From: a virus
Reading direction: 5' to 3' (one strand)
Virus record (IMG/VR): IMGVR_UViG_3300022751_000016
Coordinates: 62,001 to 126,000 of that record
DNA: 64,000 nucleotides
The translations under genes and the position numbers were made by a program. The number at the start of each line of letters is the position of its first letter. The stretch's first letter is position 1. Positions 11,770 to 49,831 of the stretch are shown here, piece after piece. The notes beneath the pieces were generated by a model. That model ran no database searches, had not been told where the DNA came from, and saw nothing but the letters and a program-made list of their open reading frames with translations.

Positions 11770-12848
11770 AGAAAATTAAAGAGAAACGCATAGAACAGTT
11801 TAAAACTGATTTTCCAGGATTTAAGGTATCAGAAAAAACAGGTTCTATTTATTGTAGAATAGGAGTAGTTGAATCAACAAAGCAAACTAAACATACAGGA
11901 AGAGCTGTTACAAAAAATACGTTATCTAAAATAGGACAACTTCAAGAGTGGAAAGTTTCTGTGGCTCGTTATGTTTATTTATTAACGCCAGCAGGAAGGC
12001 TTATGGTGAGTAAAAGCGGAGGTAATTTTAAATCAGTTGGACTTAAACAAGTAAGATTAGAAAACCCAGAATTACAAAATACATTTTTTATAGGTAAGAA
12101 GTATGAATGGTTAAAAGATTATCCTAATTTATATCCTTATAGACTATTTCAAGGTTTTAATTCATTAGGAGAAGTTAAGAAGTTCTTAGGTTTTTCTTTT
12201 ATATCAGACGAAGAATTTACTAAACTTTTCACAGCAGATTGGTTTGATTTTTTAACTCCTATGATTTTAGCTAAAGACAAGAAAAATGTAGTTAGGTTGT
12301 ATAAGAATTTAGAAACAGATGATAAGGACTTACTTAATGACTACATTAATTTGTGCCAAGAGCATAATATGGAAATAGAAATTCCTGCGGGTAAAAACAG
12401 ATTGGAAGAGTTACATACTCAAGCAGTTTGGGAAGTTAATAAAAAAACTGCTGAAAATTATTCTAAAGAAAAGCGGTATGAAATAAAAGAAGAGTTTACT
12501 GAAGTTTGGAAAGAACGCGGACTAAAATTCAAAAGATTAGAAACTCCTTATGAAATGTACGCTCAAGGAATAAAACAGCAACACTGTATAGGCACTAATT
12601 ATGCTAAAACTTTAAATAGGTATGCGTTCTACAGTTTTGAAGATAATGGCGAAAATTACGAAATGCAAATCTATGAGAACGGTAGTATAGGTCAATTTTA
12701 CGGTAGAAAAAATAAACAAGTTCCAAATTTCCTTAGAGAGAAAGTCACAAAAGATGTAAATTTAAAATATTCATTAATAGACATACAACCAGATTTAAAA
12801 AACTATCCAATGCTAAAGGAAGTTGAAGAAAGTATTTGGGATTTCTAA
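11763..12848 (+). CDS. PcfJ-like protein
   Basis: A 361-residue protein. The last 150 residues match the PcfJ-like family: a helix starting HTQAVWEVNKKTAENY, then PYEMYAQGIKQQHCIGTNYAK with the conserved His-Cys, and QIYENGSIGQFYGRKNK. These proteins are common in phages and conjugative elements. Their biochemical role is not settled. The N-terminal 200 residues are a basic region of their own. The gene ends just before the gene-free structured region. Confidence 0.85.
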   Translation: MLKKIKEKRIEQFKTDFPGFKVSEKTGSIYCRIGVVESTKQTKHTGRAVTKNTLSKIGQLQEWKVSVARYVYLLTPAGRLMVSKSGGNFKSVGLKQVRLENPELQNTFFIGKKYEWLKDYPNLYPYRLFQGFNSLGEVKKFLGFSFISDEEFTKLFTADWFDFLTPMILAKDKKNVVRLYKNLETDDKDLLNDYINLCQEHNMEIEIPAGKNRLEELHTQAVWEVNKKTAENYSKEKRYEIKEEFTEVWKERGLKFKRLETPYEMYAQGIKQQHCIGTNYAKTLNRYAFYSFEDNGENYEMQIYENGSIGQFYGRKNKQVPNFLREKVTKDVNLKYSLIDIQPDLKNYPMLKEVEESIWDF

Positions 12849-12879
12849 ATTTAGTAATGGTTACAGAAAAAATAACCAA

Positions 12880-12911
12880 TTTGGAAAATAGAATGATATT
12901 AAGTATATTTG
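12880..12911 (+). promoter_or_regulatory. Bacteroidota-type promoter for noncoding RNA
   Basis: The -7 element TATATTTG lies at 12904-12911, with TTTGG at 12880-12884 about 19-20 bases upstream. No ORF follows for over 800 bases, so the transcript starting near 12917 should be noncoding. Confidence 0.7.
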
Positions 12912-12916
12912 CAGGA

Positions 12917-13036
12917 CATAATAGAAATACAAGATTTAGACTCTCACCTCTAAAATCGTAAAGATAATAAGTATAAAAACTTAGGAAACTAACGGACAGG
13001 AAAGATGGGTGAGAGCTCTTTTCGTCCGTTTTTTGT
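12917..13036 (+). ncRNA. Putative small RNA with loop-complementary terminator
   Basis: Starting about six bases after the promoter, the segment has CTCTCACC at 12941-12948. It ends with a two-part terminator stem, AACGGAC 12991-12997 with GTCCGTT 13024-13030 and GGAAAGA 12999-13005 with TCTTTTC 13017-13023 (one G-U), followed by a T run. The 11-base terminator loop contains GGTGAGAG at 13008-13015, perfectly complementary to CTCTCACC. This allows an eight-pair pseudoknot or loop contact. No coding frame on the plus strand supports a gene. Confidence 0.65.
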
Positions 13037-13039
13037 TTT

Positions 13040-13720
13040 ATATGGATTCTATTTCTGCCAATTATACGTGACTTGATGTTAATATCATCGTATATCCTTC
13101 TAATTATTTTAGTCGGCGTCAAAGGGAAGAGTGAGCTATTTAATAGTTATCTACGCCTGAGTATAGGGGAGTTTTACGCATTTATGTATACCTTTATCCT
13201 GTTGGCAATTTAATTGTTGATAGAGGTCAGTTTCTCCCCACTTCACAAAGCAGATAGTTACTAAATTAAAAAGGATTTCAGAAATTCACTTCATGCGATG
13301 GAGTAAACAAAATAACTGAGGATTCTCAAAAGGAGTCTAACTCTGAGGGCTTGGGGGCTTGCCCTATATTTATCTTAATTAATTATATCGCAATTAGTAA
13401 ATTGTTTTCACTGCAAAGCTTTAGTATGTCGCCAAAACTATAGTTCGGCGGGAAAATATATAGATAAGTAAAAGCTTATAAAAATGGCGACAGAATATAC
13501 TACTTGCAGTGGATAGGTAATTAACAGTTTTGAATGTATTACTTAGTAGTTTATGTTGTGGCGGATTTATAGATGAAGATAGGAACGTATAAAACTGAAA
13601 GTATTAATTCCGCGCCACAAAAGAATATAAGTAAACAATCACAAACTGTAAAAAAACATTATATGAATTAGCGGGTATTTTAAGGGAAACTATGTTAAAT
13701 TTTAAAATTTCTCTTGTTTA
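13040..13720 (+). ncRNA. Putative large structured noncoding RNA
   Basis: No convincing gene lies here, but long helices are dense. Examples: 13138-13152 with 13252-13266 (14 of 15 pairs), enclosing GGGGAG 13166 with CTCCCC 13234 and ACCTTTATC 13190 with GATAGAGGT 13219; AGGGC 13346 with GCCCT 13361; CAATT 13391 with AATTG 13400; CACTGCAA 13409 with TTGCAGTG 13504, enclosing TAGTATGTCGCC 13422-13433 with GGCGACA 13486 and TACTA 13498; ACAGTTT 13524 with AAACTGT 13643, enclosing TTGTGGCG 13556 with CGCCACAA 13613. It could be separate from, or continuous with, the small RNA upstream. The strand is inferred from neighbours. Confidence 0.55.
13682..13720 (+). terminator. Possible terminator of the structured region
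   Basis: AAGGGAAA at 13682-13689 can pair with TTTCTCTT at 13708-13715 (one G-U) across an AT-rich loop, and a T-rich stretch follows. It comes just before the next promoter, where an end to upstream transcription would be expected. The tail is weak. Confidence 0.4.
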
Positions 13721-13743
13721 ATCATAAATAAGGTGTATATTTG
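13714..13743 (+). promoter_or_regulatory. Bacteroidota-type promoter
   Basis: The -7 element TATATTTG at 13736-13743 has TTG at 13714-13716 exactly 19 bases upstream. The first gene starts at 13767. It drives the small membrane-protein genes and probably the genes after them. Confidence 0.75.
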
Positions 13744-13766
13744 TAAAGAATTAAAAAAGTAAAATT

Positions 13767-13982
13767 ATGAAAATAGTAAATATATTGATTGCTTTTATAG
13801 TAACTGCTTCAATTTGCGCAATAGTAGATTTAATTATAAACTATGTAATGGCAAATACCGTTGAGTGGAAAGTCTTAAGTGAGCAATTGTGGAAAATACT
13901 AATAAGTATAGGTAGAATAAGTTTAGGCTATTTTTACGGAAGTATAATTTTTAAAGAGATTTTAAAACAGTTAGAGAACTGA
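13767..13982 (+). CDS. Small membrane protein, two segments
   Basis: A 71-residue protein with two hydrophobic segments (about residues 4-26 and 44-62) joined by a short polar stretch. It is the first of three consecutive small membrane proteins after one promoter. This could be a holin-like or host-membrane-modifying group. No family was recognised. Confidence 0.75.
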   Translation: MKIVNILIAFIVTASICAIVDLIINYVMANTVEWKVLSEQLWKILISIGRISLGYFYGSIIFKEILKQLEN

Positions 13983-17601: not shown

Positions 17602-18378
17602 ATGAGTAGAAGAAAAACTCCATTATTAAGTATACCTTCCTTGGCAGAAATGCAACAGGGAGGAGTATATAAATTTACAAACTCTATTAATGATTTTACC
17701 TATATTGGGAGTTGTAAAAAGTTCTCAGATAGATTAGCGGGGCATATTTGCGATTCTAAACGAGGCAAAGCAAATAGATATTTAATAGAGTTTGTAAATG
17801 ATTTTGGATGGGAAACTATTTCTTTTGAAATATTGGAAGTAGTTGAAGATTTCTCTTTATTAAAAACGCGGGAGAATCATTGGATAGGACTTTTTGATTT
17901 TAATTTATTATGGAATTGTGCACCAAAAGCAGACACTTTAGTAGGGACTAAGATGCCTTTGACACATAAAATTAAGAGTTCTGAAAGAATGAAAGGTAAT
18001 ACACTTAGCGTAGGTTATGTTCACTCTAAGGAGAAGGGTATAAAATGCGCAAAGTATTGGGAAGAGCACCCAAAAGAGAAGGAAGAAATGATTTCTAAAA
18101 ATAAAGAATCGCAGTCTAAGGTAGATAGGAGTTCTTGGGAAAAAGGAAAGATTATAGAAGTTTATTATGAAAAAGTCTTGATTGATACAGTAGAGGGATT
18201 AAAAAATGTAGAGACAAAATACAATTTAGGACATACCTATGCGAGTAAAATGTTACAAGGTAAGAAACCACCATTGAGGGGTTACTTTTTAAAAACAATA
18301 GGTTCTTATTTTATATCTGATAAAGTCTATATCAGAAGATATTTAAATGGAAAAGAAATAATAGAAAATAAATTATGA
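17602..18378 (+). CDS. GIY-YIG homing endonuclease
   Basis: A 258-residue protein. GGVYKFTNSINDFTYIGSC (about residues 20-38) is the GIY-YIG catalytic start, with downstream helices, RENHWIGLFD (catalytic Glu region) and ending near residue 110. The C-terminal half, with KCAKYWEEHPKEKEEM and LKNVETKYNLGHTYASKMLQGK, looks like a modular DNA-binding region (NUMOD or IENR type). It is probably a selfish free-standing endonuclease that spreads among related phages. It overlaps the next gene by four bases. Confidence 0.85.
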   Translation: MSRRKTPLLSIPSLAEMQQGGVYKFTNSINDFTYIGSCKKFSDRLAGHICDSKRGKANRYLIEFVNDFGWETISFEILEVVEDFSLLKTRENHWIGLFDFNLLWNCAPKADTLVGTKMPLTHKIKSSERMKGNTLSVGYVHSKEKGIKCAKYWEEHPKEKEEMISKNKESQSKVDRSSWEKGKIIEVYYEKVLIDTVEGLKNVETKYNLGHTYASKMLQGKKPPLRGYFLKTIGSYFISDKVYIRRYLNGKEIIENKL

Positions 18379-19724
18379 AATCAATACATTTTGTTACACC
18401 AACTTTACTTTCTCATTTGGATTTATTTTCTATGGGAGGTTCTGAAAAAGCTGAAGATACTAGTAAAATAGGAAGATACAATTCAGGACTATGTTATTCT
18501 ATGGCATTATCTTTAAGGAATAATATAGACATGTCTGTACGAGTGTTTGATACAGAATATGAGTCGGAAGGTCACGATAGAGCAAGGGAAACTTTATACA
18601 CTATTGACACCTACACTGAAATTTGTGAACAAACAGATAAAGAAAAAGAATTAATACAACTTAGTAAATCAGTTTCAAAACAATCTTTTTTCTCAGTTCA
18701 CTGTGATGATTACGGTGGTGGAGATTTCCCAGAAGAGATTATTCCAACAGGATTCTCAGTTAAAATGGGAATAGGATGGGATTTGTGGATGGTCTTGAGA
18801 GAAATCTTCTCTAATATGATTGATGAGAATGGAAATTACTATGAAGACACTTGTCCTGAAATTAAGTACGGAACAGTTTTTACATTAAGATTTGAAGATA
18901 GTTCAGAATTTGCAGAAATATGGAACAATCGTCATTTGTATATTAATGAAAAGCCACCTTTATACATCATTTCCGATACAGTTGAAGTATTAGAAAATGA
19001 AGAGGGATTTTTAAGAATTTACAAGCAAAACATATTAGTTTATAAAGATGAGAAAGTTCCAAGTAAGTTTGCGTATAATCTTAAATTCGGCGAAATAGAC
19101 GAAAAAAGAATTTTATCTAATATTTGGAGTGTTTCCAGTGATATTGTATATGCCATAAAAAATACAAAAAATGAAAATTACTTAAGAGAGATTATAACTG
19201 TTGATTTTGAAGATAAATTTCTTTCAGATAAAAGTGTCTATGGAACAGCTTCTGATTTAGCTCATAGCATAGCTTGTGAAATCTATAATAAATTCGGAGA
19301 AGTTAAAACATATCCTTGGTTGCTGAATTCTATTAAGGAAAGAAGTGATTGTGGAATTGGTGAGAAAAGAATCCAAAGCATAGGAGATAGTGTTTATAGT
19401 TATTCAAATACAGTAACTGTAACTTCTATTCCAGAGCCTTTTGCCGAACCATCTATTGAAGTTGAGGGAGAAGTATTTATAGACCCTTTTTCCGCGGAAA
19501 TAAAAAAACATTATAACTTTGAATTAGATGTAGAAGTTAGAAAAGCTAAATTACGTGGGAATAAGGTTATAGCAGATAAGTTTGAAAAGTGTCTGATTGT
19601 AGACGAAAGTTTTGATGTAGAAAAATACTTTGGAGAGTTCATAATTCAATATTTAGATTTAACTGTTGAAGGAAATGTAATTAAGAATTTAGGAGAGTAT
19701 ATTTGTAATTTATTGAAGAAATGA
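18375..19724 (+). CDS. Putative circularly permuted GHKL-like ATPase
   Basis: A 449-residue protein. IGRYNSGLCYSMALSL (about residues 32-47) resembles a Gly-rich ATP-lid motif, and WDLWMVLREIFSNMIDENG (about residues 137-155) resembles the GHKL N-box (Glu, Asn, Asp). In gyrase, Hsp90 or MutL the N-box comes first; here the order is reversed. A beta-rich and acidic C-terminal region follows (about residues 160-449). I recall similar phage proteins annotated only as ATP-binding. Function unknown. Confidence 0.55.
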   Translation: MKSIHFVTPTLLSHLDLFSMGGSEKAEDTSKIGRYNSGLCYSMALSLRNNIDMSVRVFDTEYESEGHDRARETLYTIDTYTEICEQTDKEKELIQLSKSVSKQSFFSVHCDDYGGGDFPEEIIPTGFSVKMGIGWDLWMVLREIFSNMIDENGNYYEDTCPEIKYGTVFTLRFEDSSEFAEIWNNRHLYINEKPPLYIISDTVEVLENEEGFLRIYKQNILVYKDEKVPSKFAYNLKFGEIDEKRILSNIWSVSSDIVYAIKNTKNENYLREIITVDFEDKFLSDKSVYGTASDLAHSIACEIYNKFGEVKTYPWLLNSIKERSDCGIGEKRIQSIGDSVYSYSNTVTVTSIPEPFAEPSIEVEGEVFIDPFSAEIKKHYNFELDVEVRKAKLRGNKVIADKFEKCLIVDESFDVEKYFGEFIIQYLDLTVEGNVIKNLGEYICNLLKK

Positions 19725-28286: not shown

Positions 28287-28995
28287 CAACTTAGAGGTTT
28301 TTATAAAAGAATGGTTTCCTAAAACAGAAGAATGGAATAATATATCCAAGTTCATTTTAGAATCAGGGATACAAATAACAGATGATGTGAATCCTAAATG
28401 GTTAACAGGGTATACTAATATTGGTAAAAGTAGTAAGCCACATCATAAAGATGAATATACACGCTACATGGAAGAAGGCATGTTTATGCTTCACGATGTA
28501 GTTCATCAAATATTTACTTTAGATACCGAATGTTCAGAAGAGCAGTACGTTAAAAGACAAATTTATGGAGAATTATTCACTTTTTATTTAACAGAGTACG
28601 TTATTCCTAGCAGTTATGGTTTAGGAGATAAAAGAAAAGAATATATTGTTTATAATAGAGACTGTTATAATTTATTGGATTGGGTAGTATCAGAAAAACC
28701 TCGTGTTAAATACAATATTATAGATTGGATGTGGGAAGTTTTTATAGAAGATACAGATTTAAAATATATTAATAGGTTAGAAGAAGTTTATCTAGATAAA
28801 TATCGAAAAATGTTTAAAGAAGACTTGGAGAACTCAAGAAAAAATTATAAATTTGTACCTAATGGAATAAAGAATTATTGTATGGTTGGAGAGTCAAGTC
28901 AAAATCATATAGATTTCTTCTCTGCTGTTAAAAATGGCGCGATAAAAAATATAAAAAGAGATTTTAATTTAGAACTTCCTAATGAGTGGATTTAA
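28276..28995 (+). CDS. Conserved phage protein with His-Asp-x-x-His motif
   Basis: A 239-residue protein. FMLHDVVHQIFTL (about residues 73-85) with a downstream EEQYVKRQIYGELFTFYLTEYV is a pattern I recall in a phage family without known function. His, Asp and His could bind a metal as in HD-domain or other hydrolases, though the rest does not match HD. The remaining part is helical and basic. Confidence 0.72.
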   Translation: MNNNNLEVFIKEWFPKTEEWNNISKFILESGIQITDDVNPKWLTGYTNIGKSSKPHHKDEYTRYMEEGMFMLHDVVHQIFTLDTECSEEQYVKRQIYGELFTFYLTEYVIPSSYGLGDKRKEYIVYNRDCYNLLDWVVSEKPRVKYNIIDWMWEVFIEDTDLKYINRLEEVYLDKYRKMFKEDLENSRKNYKFVPNGIKNYCMVGESSQNHIDFFSAVKNGAIKNIKRDFNLELPNEWI

Positions 28996-29018: not shown

Positions 29019-29354
29019 ATGGAAATAACAGAGCAATATTCATTTAATGAAGGAGAATACACAGATTACTCTCCTTACGAATGTGTCCAGTATATGATTG
29101 AACAAGATATGCCTAAAGAACATATTGTAGGGTGTAAACTAGAAATTTTAAAACTGGAACAATGTATACCATTAGGTAAAATTAAAGAAATTGTCTATGA
29201 TAATTATGATGACCGTTTTGATGAGCAAGACTATCTGAGTGATAAACTAGAAAACATCTGGAAACAGTTTGAAGAGATAAAAATGTTCTATGCCTCAGAT
29301 GAATATTACACAGTTACTGAGGAAGATTATAATGAAGTGATTAAAGATTTGTAG
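29019..29354 (+). CDS. Hypothetical acidic protein
   Basis: A 111-residue, very acidic, mostly helical protein (YECVQYMIEQDMPKEHIVGC). High net negative charge and small size are features also found in phage DNA-mimic inhibitors, but nothing else supports that role. Spacing of three bases to the next gene suggests one operon. Confidence 0.7.
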   Translation: MEITEQYSFNEGEYTDYSPYECVQYMIEQDMPKEHIVGCKLEILKLEQCIPLGKIKEIVYDNYDDRFDEQDYLSDKLENIWKQFEEIKMFYASDEYYTVTEEDYNEVIKDL

Positions 29355-32756: not shown

Positions 32757-32780
32757 AAAGTTAAGAAAATCTTAAATGAT

Positions 32781-32934
32781 TAGGAAGTGTAAAAATAAAG
32801 TTGTATATTAGCGTTTTAAATTTCTTGGCGGAGATTTTAATAGCAAAATTTTAAAATAAAAAACATAAATAAGAGACACCTGTATGATGCTACCGCCATA
32901 GCTGATTATAGGTGTTCTCGTTTATAAAAATAAA
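32781..32934 (+). promoter_or_regulatory. Promoter and structured leader of the LAGLIDADG gene
   Basis: TATATTAG at 32804-32811 has TAGG at 32781-32784 in the -33 position. Seventeen bases from the start of the -7 element lies TTTCTTG (32821-32827), directly followed by GGCGG, which can pair with CCGCC at 32893-32897. CCGCC lies in the loop of a second stem (GAG and ACACCT 32873-32881 with AGGTGT 32910-32915 and CTC 32917-32919) just before the start codon. A pseudoknot is possible. A matching leader precedes the gene at 41708. Confidence 0.5.
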
Positions 32935-33978
32935 ATGGAAATAACAAACCAACAAAAACAAGTATTACTAAGCGGTCTTTTAGGAGATGGAAGTATTAAA
33001 AGGTCACATGTGTCTTACAACTGTATGTATGAAGAATATATGCAATTTAAAAGAAGTTTACTAGGAAATTTAGCCAAATCAGAGGTTATTGAATCGGATA
33101 ATTTAGGTTACAAAAAAGGTTCTAAAATTTACACTTTTTCTGGTAAATTTAATTCATATGCAGATTCTCTAGTTAATAAAGATTTATCTGAAATGATTCA
33201 AGACTTAGATGAATTGGGACTGGCTCTCTGGGTTATGGATGATGGCTCACTTCACAAGAAGAATTATTTCTACAATATCAACACACATTCGTTTCCAAAA
33301 GAAGTTCAGGAAAAAGTATTAATTCCCGCCTTAAATAAATTTGGAATATATCCTAAAACAATGGTTGAAAATAAACCTGATGGAAGACAGTTTCATTATT
33401 TGTATATTTCAAAATGGAATGGTGCAATGATTATTTCTCGAATACTTAGAAACTATGCTGTAAATTGTTATAAATACAAACTCATACCTAAAGAAATTGA
33501 AGACGCTTACTTTAAACTAGATTTAGAAGTTTTCAATGCACTACCAACAGAGTATGCAAAAACAAGTTATTTATTAAAACAGAACGGAGTTCGACAAATG
33601 AGTGATTTACTAATGAATAATACAAAAGGTAAAGAGTACACTTACGAAGAATTAGACGAGTTATGGAATAAAACTTTTCCAAAAACAGATTGTGTCTTTT
33701 CTATATATGATTTTAAGAAAACAAAAGAAGGTGAGGATGAAAATGTCTTAATACCACAAGTTAATTTTTTAGATGAAAATCCTATTGTTAAGGGGTCTTT
33801 TAAATTGTCTTTTAACACTTGGAAATATGGTGAAACTTTTTATTCTATCGAGGGAAGGTCACTTACTTGGAAAACGCTTCTAGATATTATAGATAAACAT
33901 GGAGATGGACATCACATATTTTTAGAATTAATTGAAATTAAGAATAACAACGAAGTGTTTGTATTTTTAGGCAGTTAG
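32935..33978 (+). CDS. LAGLIDADG homing endonuclease
   Basis: A 347-residue protein with two LAGLIDADG motifs, LLSGLLGDGSI (about residues 11-21) and LALWVMDDGSL (about residues 95-105), supplying catalytic acidic residues. Residues 1-200 cover the nuclease core; the last 130 residues form an extra domain of unknown family. It is free-standing between polymerase and terminator and is not inside an intein or a clear intron. It probably cuts a site in related phages lacking it, perhaps at the polymerase gene. Confidence 0.88.
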   Translation: MEITNQQKQVLLSGLLGDGSIKRSHVSYNCMYEEYMQFKRSLLGNLAKSEVIESDNLGYKKGSKIYTFSGKFNSYADSLVNKDLSEMIQDLDELGLALWVMDDGSLHKKNYFYNINTHSFPKEVQEKVLIPALNKFGIYPKTMVENKPDGRQFHYLYISKWNGAMIISRILRNYAVNCYKYKLIPKEIEDAYFKLDLEVFNALPTEYAKTSYLLKQNGVRQMSDLLMNNTKGKEYTYEELDELWNKTFPKTDCVFSIYDFKKTKEGEDENVLIPQVNFLDENPIVKGSFKLSFNTWKYGETFYSIEGRSLTWKTLLDIIDKHGDGHHIFLELIEIKNNNEVFVFLGS

Positions 33979-47605: not shown

Positions 47606-48345
47606 TAGTCTGTGATTTCTATTTTATAGTTATACATTGCGTGATGACATTCTATGGAAATTAAAGTTTTCCACTCGTCCGCTACTTCTTTTATATACTT
47701 TTCTTTTGCTGTTTTATAAGCTTGAAATGCCTCCTCTGGGGTGTTAAAACGTCCTAAATCTACATATTCTTCTTTCTTATGAAACCTCGCTTTGTATTTT
47801 TTATCTGCCTTAGTAACTCCAATTGGGTATTTTCCTCGAACCTTGTTACTTTTTACAAACAAAGAGTTTATTTCGTGAGGTACAAAGCAACATGTTTCCT
47901 GAGAATAAAAAATATTCCCTTTGACAAAAATGTCTTTATCTAATTCCCATCCTTGCATATAAGGTTTCCAATTATCTTCATACCACTTAGCAAAATTCTG
48001 AAAACATTTCCAGTCTTCAATAACAAAACAATTTTTATAAGTTTGGTAATTTTTCTGATACTTGTCACTATAACTCCTTTGTAATATGCCAGCCCACTTT
48101 TTGTATATTTCAGGATGTGTTTTGTTTGTATATTTACCAACCCCTAAATAACCAACTCCGTACACAGAAGGATGATTGGGATTTTTTACAACTCCCTCTT
48201 TAATGTGCCCATATTGAATATTTTTTAATATTACTCCATCTTCAAATTGTACAGCACAGTTGTTGCATCCAAAGTATTCAATGATTTCCATTTTGAGACC
48301 TTGCTTGTTAATATACACCTTTCCTACTTTGTTGTTATATCTCAT
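47605..48345 (-). CDS. AP2-domain homing endonuclease-like protein
   Basis: A 246-residue protein. The centre has KKWAGILQRSYSDKYQKNYQ and GWELDKDIFVKGNIFYSQET; the end has PIGVTKADKKYKARFHKKEE, LGRFNTPEEAFQAYKTAKE, an AP2-like DNA-binding domain (about residues 175-235). Phage homing endonucleases of this type often have a degenerate HNH core. It lies inside the NAD operon, overlapping the NAMPT gene by 11 bases. It is probably an inserted selfish gene. Confidence 0.78.
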   Translation of the reverse strand: MRYNNKVGKVYINKQGLKMEIIEYFGCNNCAVQFEDGVILKNIQYGHIKEGVVKNPNHPSVYGVGYLGVGKYTNKTHPEIYKKWAGILQRSYSDKYQKNYQTYKNCFVIEDWKCFQNFAKWYEDNWKPYMQGWELDKDIFVKGNIFYSQETCCFVPHEINSLFVKSNKVRGKYPIGVTKADKKYKARFHKKEEYVDLGRFNTPEEAFQAYKTAKEKYIKEVADEWKTLISIECHHAMYNYKIEITD

Positions 48346-49831
48346 TGATTCTTTGTCTTATTAAACTGAGTGTTGTTTGATTGTAGTAGTTGCCGTCCTT
48401 AAATCTAACTTTTAGTTGGTTTTCTTCTGATGATAATTCTTCTAAACTCGCTTGGTCTTTCAAATAATACTCCCCATTTTCATCTTTAAACACTACTGTT
48501 AAACCTTTTGCTGATTTTTTAATTCCGTCGTCAGTTACGGGGTCTTTCATAATTTCAACTAATTCTCCATTTCTTTGTTGTGCAATACATTTCAAAGCCA
48601 TTCCCCAAGTATCTCTTGTTACCATTTGCATAGAGAAACTACCTTGACCGAAGAAGCAGTTACTTGCTGCAAAACTTTTAGCTTCTAGGCGCGAAAAGAT
48701 TTCTTTAATATTATTTTGGTTAATTGCCTCACCATAAATCATTCCTATGTGAGAATCTAAAACTTTAAAACCTTCTTCGTTAACTGTTCCGCCGAAAACG
48801 TCCCAAAGAAGTTCAATTACACCTTTGTTTTTTGGCGAAATGGTTACAGGTTGTGAATAAGCTTTATTTGTTTTATAATTAATAGGTTCTCCACAAATAA
48901 TATCTACAGGATTTCCTGAATCAGGTCGAATAACTAATTTACCATCACGAGCCATAATAATATCTTTCAATTTAGGCAAGTAATCTGTTAAAACTCTCCA
49001 CAAATCAAAACTGTCTGATACTAGTGACATGATTCCTGTTGGAAACTTAGTAAGCAGATTTTCATATATTTCAAATTCTCCTTCGATTCCACCCGCTGTC
49101 ATTTGGCTGTGCTCTGAAGCTCTCACACTAAATACAGGCGTAGATGTTTCATCATAATAATGCTGAGAAGCTTTTATTACTGGTAAACTGTCAGAACCCA
49201 TAGATACAGAAGCAAAAGCTAATCCTGAACCAATCGCCGCATCTAAGCCTGTTAAACCACGCATAGAGAAATCATGTAACATAAAATCAACAGCTCCAAC
49301 ATTATCTTTATCTGTTTTTAACACTGCCTCTTTAACTATTCTCTTCATTAAGAGTACATTAGTTGCTGTTGTTAATGGTTGCCACAGTAAATTACTTAGA
49401 ATAGTTTCAATGTAATTAGTAACCCAAGCAAATCTAATGTCAGTGTTGTATAAAAATAACACAGGAATTTTAATAGCAGATTCTGTCCCTTCATCTAAAG
49501 TTCTAATCTCTAAAGGTAAATATCCTAAATCATGCAGTTCTTCAATATGTTTTGTATCGTAATCTACGTCCAAATAAGCTGAAAAATTAGTTTTTACATC
49601 ATTAATAATATCTTCTTTTCGAATGTTAAAAAAGTTTTCATTAAAATGCTCCACTATAAAACGGATTGCATATTGGTGTCCAAAATTTAATACTTTACCA
49701 TTATTACCTTTTGGTGCGTATTTATTACTTCGCGGAGTAAAATTACTGTACACGATTTCTGTACCGTCTTGATACATTTCAAAGTGGGAAATTTTATATC
49801 CATCTACTAAAAACATACTATTCATTCTCAT
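48335..49831 (-). CDS. Nicotinamide phosphoribosyltransferase-like enzyme (NAMPT or Namat)
   Basis: A 498-residue protein, full length for NAMPT. FLVDGYKISHFEMYQDGTE, MLHDFSMRGLTGLDAA, VRASEHSQMTAGG (active-site His), LVIRPDSGNPVDI (Arg and Asp for the sugar), FGQGSFSMQM and RDTWGMALKC are all present. The standard reaction joins nicotinamide and PRPP to NMN. Phage homologues in NARP1 (Namat) instead join nicotinamide and ADP-ribose pyrophosphate to NAD+. It is the first gene of an operon; the start could be Met1 or Met3. Confidence 0.94.
   Translation of the reverse strand: MRMNSMFLVDGYKISHFEMYQDGTEIVYSNFTPRSNKYAPKGNNGKVLNFGHQYAIRFIVEHFNENFFNIRKEDIINDVKTNFSAYLDVDYDTKHIEELHDLGYLPLEIRTLDEGTESAIKIPVLFLYNTDIRFAWVTNYIETILSNLLWQPLTTATNVLLMKRIVKEAVLKTDKDNVGAVDFMLHDFSMRGLTGLDAAIGSGLAFASVSMGSDSLPVIKASQHYYDETSTPVFSVRASEHSQMTAGGIEGEFEIYENLLTKFPTGIMSLVSDSFDLWRVLTDYLPKLKDIIMARDGKLVIRPDSGNPVDIICGEPINYKTNKAYSQPVTISPKNKGVIELLWDVFGGTVNEEGFKVLDSHIGMIYGEAINQNNIKEIFSRLEAKSFAASNCFFGQGSFSMQMVTRDTWGMALKCIAQQRNGELVEIMKDPVTDDGIKKSAKGLTVVFKDENGEYYLKDQASLEELSSEENQLKVRFKDGNYYNQTTLSLIRQRINEI

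Follow-up and report, generated by a model that had tools for sequence, protein, structure and literature searches.

A leader RNA with a predicted contact between an upstream hairpin and a terminator-like loop recurs ahead of endonuclease genes and large non-coding RNAs in phage genomes

The DNA analysed here, the window, is a stretch of 64,000 nucleotides, positions 62001-126000 of a 142,450-base virus record. It encodes a DNA polymerase, a DnaB-like helicase and a nicotinamide phosphoribosyltransferase (NAMPT), and two giant open reading frames of 2042 and 1648 aa lie on the minus strand; such giant frames are presumably a mark of the Crassvirales. The helicase shares 40% identity with those of the Cellulophaga phages phi17:2 and phi4:1, and two gut phages are more distant. 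The phage is crAss-like, and the Crassvirales rank with the most abundant of known phages.

The original prediction had described a promoter, an RNA of about 120 bases, an 11-base terminator loop and an exact complement of that loop about 60 bases upstream, all of which are present in the sequence at those places (Table 1). The promoter was typed by the consensus TTTG-N19-TAnnTTTG, which we take to be that of Bacteroidota promoters, and the form TTTG-N20-TATATTT[GA] is shared by the ncRNA-1 leaders of the other four records and by the leader of record G005. A putative start near 12917 would give an RNA of about 119 nt. The terminator loop carries GGTGAGAG, the exact 8-base reverse complement of CTCTCACC, and the two strands are 59 nt apart; because the upstream strand is itself a hairpin loop, the predicted contact is loop-loop. 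Both strands are mostly unpaired in nested folding (0.89 and 0.77), and the small RNA folded alone is weakly better than shuffles (z -1.67). The downstream hairpin contains G+C and is directly followed by a T run, as in an intrinsic terminator. The small TAAG/CTTA hairpin of the linker overlaps a possible outer stem, so the two are mutually exclusive. The RNA is not tied to the PcfJ-like gene upstream of it, because the relatives of that gene have other genes directly after them. No match to Rfam release 15 was found at gathering score in the whole window, and two weak hits in 12800-13800 belong to unrelated families and lie far under their cut-offs. Short copies similar to the promoter region (12842-12912) occur in the same genome at G000:C1:380-430, 18938-18968, 28481-28538 and 129106-129128. 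A second leader in the window, directly ahead of a LAGLIDADG-type gene, was spotted by eye once that gene was known as an endonuclease gene.

Table 1. Features of the two window leaders, related loci and catalogued leaders (G, phage records; L, loci; other positions are those of the window)
Feature	Position	Strand	Remark
Bacteroidota-type promoter TTTG-N20-TATATTTG	12880..12911	+	sequence; TTTG 12880-12883, 20-nt spacer, TATATTTG 12904-12911
Hairpin 1	12933..12957	+	arms GATTTAGA 12933-12940 and TCTAAAATC 12949-12957; sequence, conserved in alignment A5
Hairpin 1 loop, kissing strand CTCTCACC	12941..12948	+	8 nt; exact complement of 13008-13015
Small TAAG/CTTA linker hairpin	12968..12983	+	by eye; in five homologues, five pairs in G005
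Terminator-like hairpin and T6 run	12991..13034	+	sequence, terminator scan, fold; arms AACGGAC-a-GGAAAGA 12991-13005 and TCTTTTC-GTCCGTT 13017-13030; 11-nt loop TGGGTGAGAGC 13006-13016; T6 13029-13034; three compensatory pairs in A5
Kissing strand GGTGAGAG in terminator loop	13008..13015	+	exact complement of 12941-12948; loop match in all homologues
ncRNA-1 position, probable structured RNA, non-coding	13036..13680	+	no ORF of at least 55 aa starting within 520 nt
Second leader region	32760-32934		loop pair TGGCGG/CCGCCA, 6 bp
Promoter-like box TATATTAG	32804..32811	+	by eye; differs from TAnnTTTG
Second leader, hairpin 1	32818..32837	+	kissing strand TGGCGG 32826-32831; exact 6-bp complement
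Second leader, hairpin 2	32873..32919	+	loop CCGCCA 32893-32898; no U-tract
LAGLIDADG-type homing endonuclease gene, cargo of second leader	32935..33978	+	phrog_11023, E 6.9e-08
NAMPT gene	48335-49831	-	phrog_448
ncRNA-1 loci	L014, L026, L050, L354; window 13036-13680
ncRNA-2	L386:2463-3103; L393:14849-15496	- (L386)	G002 and G004 copies 93% identical
Winged-helix-type proteins	L380:6581-7444; L370:8718-9656; L499:6011-6844; G000:29041-29944 (in L362)	- (L380)
ncRNA-1 leaders (five)	G000 (window), G001, G002, G004, G006
ncRNA-2 leaders (two)	G002:61603, G004:53849
Winged-helix-type protein leaders (four)	G005, G003:86565, G009:83864, G000 before gene at 29041
HNH endonuclease leaders (nine)	G000:49695, G002:125541, G002:33994, G004:131856, G008:7629, G008:37270, G008:25362, G008:44547, G009:12292
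LAGLIDADG leader (one)	before window 32935 gene
76-aa ORF leader (one)	G008:35348
Leaders with four T after hairpin 2	G008:35348, G004:104597, G009:83864
Leaders without a U-tract	G002:61603, G004:53849, G003:86565, LAGLIDADG (window 32935 gene)

The 5' half of the window RNA was found elsewhere in G002 when the whole records of the PcfJ-like relatives were searched, and a pattern scan gave 57 stretches, among them the homologues L026, L050 and L043, L048 being the same place as L014. A first 16-base pattern returned only unrelated coding DNA; two further patterns, run over genome contigs, returned 0 and 101 stretches, none with a hairpin and complement. CACCTCT-type sites numbered 294 in all DNA examined and were accompanied by hairpin and complement only at the five known loci. 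Protein searches for the neighbour genes gave few relatives (three loci and one locus), and blastn of the window region against 50,697 named phage records gave no match. An RNA model of the leader (R1) had one strong match each in five of seven phage records, and its weak match in G008 proved to be a leader; in 395 Bacteroidota genomes it had one weak match (E 0.004), at which no kissing pair was seen.

The loop pair changes from copy to copy: CTCTCACC/GGTGAGAG in the window, CCATCAC/GTGATGG in L014 and L050, CCTTCAC/GTGAAGG in L026 and CTCTCAC/GTGAGAG in L043. In the five-row alignment A5, which amounts to essentially four sequences because L014 and L050 are near-identical, 91.8% of the structure cells are paired, against 32-50% with the partners slid. 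Seven of the eight kissing pairs are kept in all five rows, the eighth being found in the window only, and two kissing pairs as well as three terminator pairs have changes on both sides. A three-way series behaves in the same manner, with GTGATAC/GTATCAC in G002, GTGATAA/TTATCAC in G004 and GTGACGA/TCGTCAC in G003. Pair counts exclude the leader-group alignments A9 and A10, in which hairpin 2 is misplaced. The G001 leader, which stands ahead of ncRNA-1, shares the promoter, and its two hairpins are GATTT[..TTCGTAG..]AAATC and a terminator hairpin whose loop reads CTACGAA; it is unrelated in sequence to the G006 leader, yet has an exact 7-bp loop match (TTCGTAG/CTACGAA). The flanks upstream of these two leaders are 95% identical, whereas the leaders are completely different, and model R1 finds nothing at the G001 leader. 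Seven leaders were found by homology without use of the pairing (G002:13425, G004:104597, G006, G005, G001, G003 and G008:35348), and all seven have an exact loop-loop match of 7-8 bp. Comparison among leaders shows that the predicted loop-loop pairing is under selection, and the pairing is almost surely real. The pseudoknot originally proposed around the terminator is supported in the form of loop-loop kissing, as homologues keep the match, several of them by compensatory change. Homologues retaining the terminator and losing the complementarity would have spoken against it; in those checked the pairing was kept, and the claim stands.

Further leaders were sought with a scan combining the promoter with a loop-to-loop complement. 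Its strict promoter-anchored version gave 13 distinct matches in 2270 regions of ten records, against 1, 0 and 1 for reverse, complement and same-strand 7-mers and 0, 0, 1, 1, 0 and 0 in six dinucleotide shuffles, with thresholds that are post hoc because they were tuned over several rounds while the hits were visible. Laxer versions gave 74 reverse-complement matches against 82, 49 and 118 in the controls, and 94 against 114, 64 and 163. The window copy fails the bulge-free stem rule of the strict scan and is not among the 13, and Cellulophaga phage phi17:2 had no strict match; such a leader was absent from all the named phages examined. Strict matches, homologues and cases under the stem threshold together make a catalogue of 22 leaders in nine phage records, four of them in this genome and two of those in the window. 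The leaders of G009:12292 and of the LAGLIDADG gene were recognised by eye, and that of G000:29041 came from the gene survey described below. Homing endonucleases are the cargo of ten leaders, winged-helix-type proteins of four, the two large ncRNAs of seven and a 76-aa ORF of one.

The order of the module is promoter, hairpin 1, A-rich linker, hairpin 2 and cargo, and the loop sequence is different nearly every time. The kissing helices have 7-9 bp (6 bp in the LAGLIDADG leader), and their strands are 37-63 nt apart in the 20 leaders compared, all of which match themselves, most having been selected for that match. In nested folds of 20 leaders the strands are mostly unpaired (0.44-1.00 and 0.67-0.99). 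Directly after hairpin 2 there is a run of at least five T in 15 of the 22 leaders, four T in three and fewer in four. The distance from promoter box to start codon is 86-160 nt in 12 protein-coding cases. Outer stems beyond the U-tract can be drawn in L014, L026, L043 and G001, for example AACCTC/GAGGTT in L014 and AATCTC/GAGATT in L026; such a stem would exclude the small linker hairpin and could represent a second state. By eye, no sequence core of the sort expected of a riboswitch is common to the 22 leaders beyond the promoter and the design. The window element is very probably one copy of a recurrent leader class and not a lone small RNA; the stand-alone small RNA first envisaged finds no support, since among homologues and analogues the element is the 5' leader of a gene or an ncRNA.

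The window copy of ncRNA-1 has diverged too far for alignment, and its fold beats shuffles only weakly (z -1.51). In the four other records (alignment A8) ncRNA-1 measures about 600-700 nt, a predicted long-range helix joins its 5' and 3' ends, 17 of the 130 predicted pairs are altered on both sides and the 3' third is highly conserved. The ncRNA-1 of G006 recurs in G001 with 87% identity. By eye, ncRNA-2 and the window ncRNA have a common motif, GYCGCC-AAA(A)CTATAGT..GGCG.

Those HNH proteins that were tested hit HNH endonuclease families of PHROGs and partly Pfam HNH_3, NUMOD4 and AP2; the ones of G008:7629 and G009:12292 were assigned by similarity instead of PHROGs. In a survey of 1531 ORFs, scoring was confined to genes preceded by a gap of 90 nt or more, which left out 20 endonuclease genes with smaller gaps. 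A kissing pair of 6 bp was scored before 8 of the 13 endonuclease genes in this set and before 24 of the 441 other genes (Fisher p 2.5e-7); in letter-transformed controls the endonuclease genes gave 1, 1 and 0 and the other genes 18, 12 and 16. Five endonuclease genes failed to score: for two of them, G009:12418 and the LAGLIDADG gene, the leader misses the threshold narrowly, and the other three, G002:5986, G008:33266 and G009:118667, look to be preceded by uncalled coding sequence. The idea that the leader belongs to all endonucleases of the family was rejected, with 4 of 85 loci scoring against 6, 4, 1 and 2 in controls; beyond the present phages the family does not rise above background. 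The scoring loci are three distinct ones, all with a Bacteroidota promoter, and L402 is also a true case but under the stem threshold. At L411, a counter-example, the endonuclease gene has its own promoter and a 112-nt leader with no kissing pair. A GIY-YIG-type endonuclease gene (by eye) lies at window 17602-18378, 4 nt after the preceding gene and without a leader. A clean empty site, which would indicate that the leader travels together with its endonuclease gene as a single cassette, was looked for and none was found; the sole candidate, G002:33994 compared with G004, was dropped, as 1300-1570 bases of other DNA lie between the flanks. Three of the winged-helix-type proteins share 29-38% identity, the name resting on sub-threshold Pfam hits for one protein, and tblastn gave no match in named phages. 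Behind related leaders stands either an ncRNA or a winged-helix-type protein, swapped once in each of two leader lineages (G005 and G003).

Parts of this design are known from other systems. The pT181-type plasmid attenuators, as described in PMC3753616, combine kissing hairpins with premature termination, and they resemble the present leaders in having a loop-loop kissing contact beside a conditional terminator in a 5' leader, with the loop sequence setting specificity. In that description, however, a separate antisense RNA supplies the second loop and its binding makes the terminator form (PMC3753616), whereas in the present leaders a single RNA holds the two loops, the terminator's own loop being one of them; the complement was found in the same strand, 37-63 nt downstream. 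In T4-like phages, RNA hairpins restrain the homing-endonuclease genes I-TevI, mobE and segB, according to PMC3014915. The leaders have in common with them a 5' RNA structure ahead of phage homing-endonuclease genes, which in the T4-like case reduces expression (PMC3014915). The T4-like hairpins of that account sequester the ribosome binding site (PMC3014915), whereas hairpin 2 of the leaders is mostly terminator-like, is tied to an upstream hairpin and, in the leaders read, ends before the start codon. The leader also precedes structured phage ncRNAs of about 500-700 nt, which recall the large ornate GOLLD and ROOL phage RNAs treated in PMC12286853. Unlike these, the leader and ncRNAs searched have no match at Rfam gathering score, either to the GOLLD, ROOL and OLE models or, for L014, L026, L050, L043, L399, L409, L400, L402, L484, L353, L355 and L356, to any family. 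In the open-licence literature we found no description of a leader, ahead of phage homing-endonuclease genes, that pairs its own upstream hairpin with its terminator loop.

The cargo is mobile-element-like (homing endonucleases), or consists of winged-helix-type proteins and large ncRNAs, and the leader probably throttles the amount of it that is made. We lean, at somewhat better than even, towards a cis-acting kissing-loop attenuator that would limit expression of mobile-element cargo. Hairpin 1 would fold first and, in cis, capture the loop of hairpin 2 as it emerges; the capture would stabilise hairpin 2 and favour early termination, so that only a fraction of polymerases would reach the cargo, whose expression would be low or would be relieved of this limit once hairpin 1 or its loop became occupied. 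With at least five T in 15 of the 22 leaders and four in three more, most have the appearance of attenuators whose terminator loop is clamped by the upstream hairpin, and a kissing helix confined to loops should stabilise the terminator and not unfold or displace it. Control of the downstream RNA, as originally predicted, gains support from the recurrence directly before start codons and large structured RNAs. The switch between readthrough and termination that was proposed with it is conceivable; no antiterminator mutually exclusive with the terminator came to light. The kissing is well supported; termination and switching are what we infer. The four leaders without a U-tract mean that termination is not the universal function, and in them the same structure would have to work in another way, perhaps through translation or the stability of the RNA.

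A kissing contact alone need not mean regulation and could be purely structural or stabilising. The leader may protect the 5' end or set the start-codon region open or closed, termination being incidental, and we give this a modest chance: the fold persists in the four leaders that have no U-tract, and phages T4 and Aeh1 are described as controlling endonuclease genes at translation by RNA hairpins (PMC3014915), but four or more T directly follow hairpin 2 in 18 of 22 leaders and the start codon is outside hairpin 2 in those read. It is unlikely, though conceivable, that the terminated leader of about 120 nt kisses nascent transcripts of the same or an incoming identical element, which would be autogenous, address-specific repression as in plasmid copy-number control. 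Both partners are hairpin loops with a match of 6-9 bp, and within one genome no two catalogued leaders share a loop sequence; among 380 ordered pairs, 7-bp cross-matches occurred eight times between leaders of the same loop and once with G009:12292, and the G001 leader is wholly unlike that of G006 despite the nearly identical flanks. Distinct loops are, however, also expected from drift under pairing in cis, and the cis contact should win because the linkers are short and A-rich. That the loop pair is an 'address', by which the terminated leader RNA of each mobile element represses identical copies in trans, we hold to be rather improbable; if true, homing endonucleases and large mobile ncRNAs would possess a system of self-recognition or incompatibility, and the alternation of ncRNA and winged-helix-type protein behind related leaders in two lineages would mean that the RNA and the protein serve the same purpose.

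A switch sensing a ligand or protein, with the kissing fold as aptamer and the terminator as expression platform, seems very unlikely. Hairpin 1 and the linker are conserved in the first five homologues and the outer stem of several leaders would exclude the TAAG/CTTA hairpin, but the 22 leaders have no conserved unpaired core, their sequences are mostly unrelated apart from the design and Rfam recognises none of those searched. Least credible of all is chance complementarity in A+T-rich phage DNA. Short complements are common, and the laxer scans gave similar numbers in controls; for the family, chance is refuted by the compensatory changes seen in two series of homologues, by the strict scan with 13 matches against 0-1 in controls and by the enrichment before endonuclease genes, even though any single copy could be accidental.

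Under the attenuator reading that we prefer, the freely variable and covarying loop codes would make these leaders a naturally occurring set of orthogonal kissing-loop attenuators, of a kind comparable to the ones engineered from pT181. Through the leader, two large phage ncRNAs not described before and a family of winged-helix-type proteins are also picked out as sharing one putative control element.
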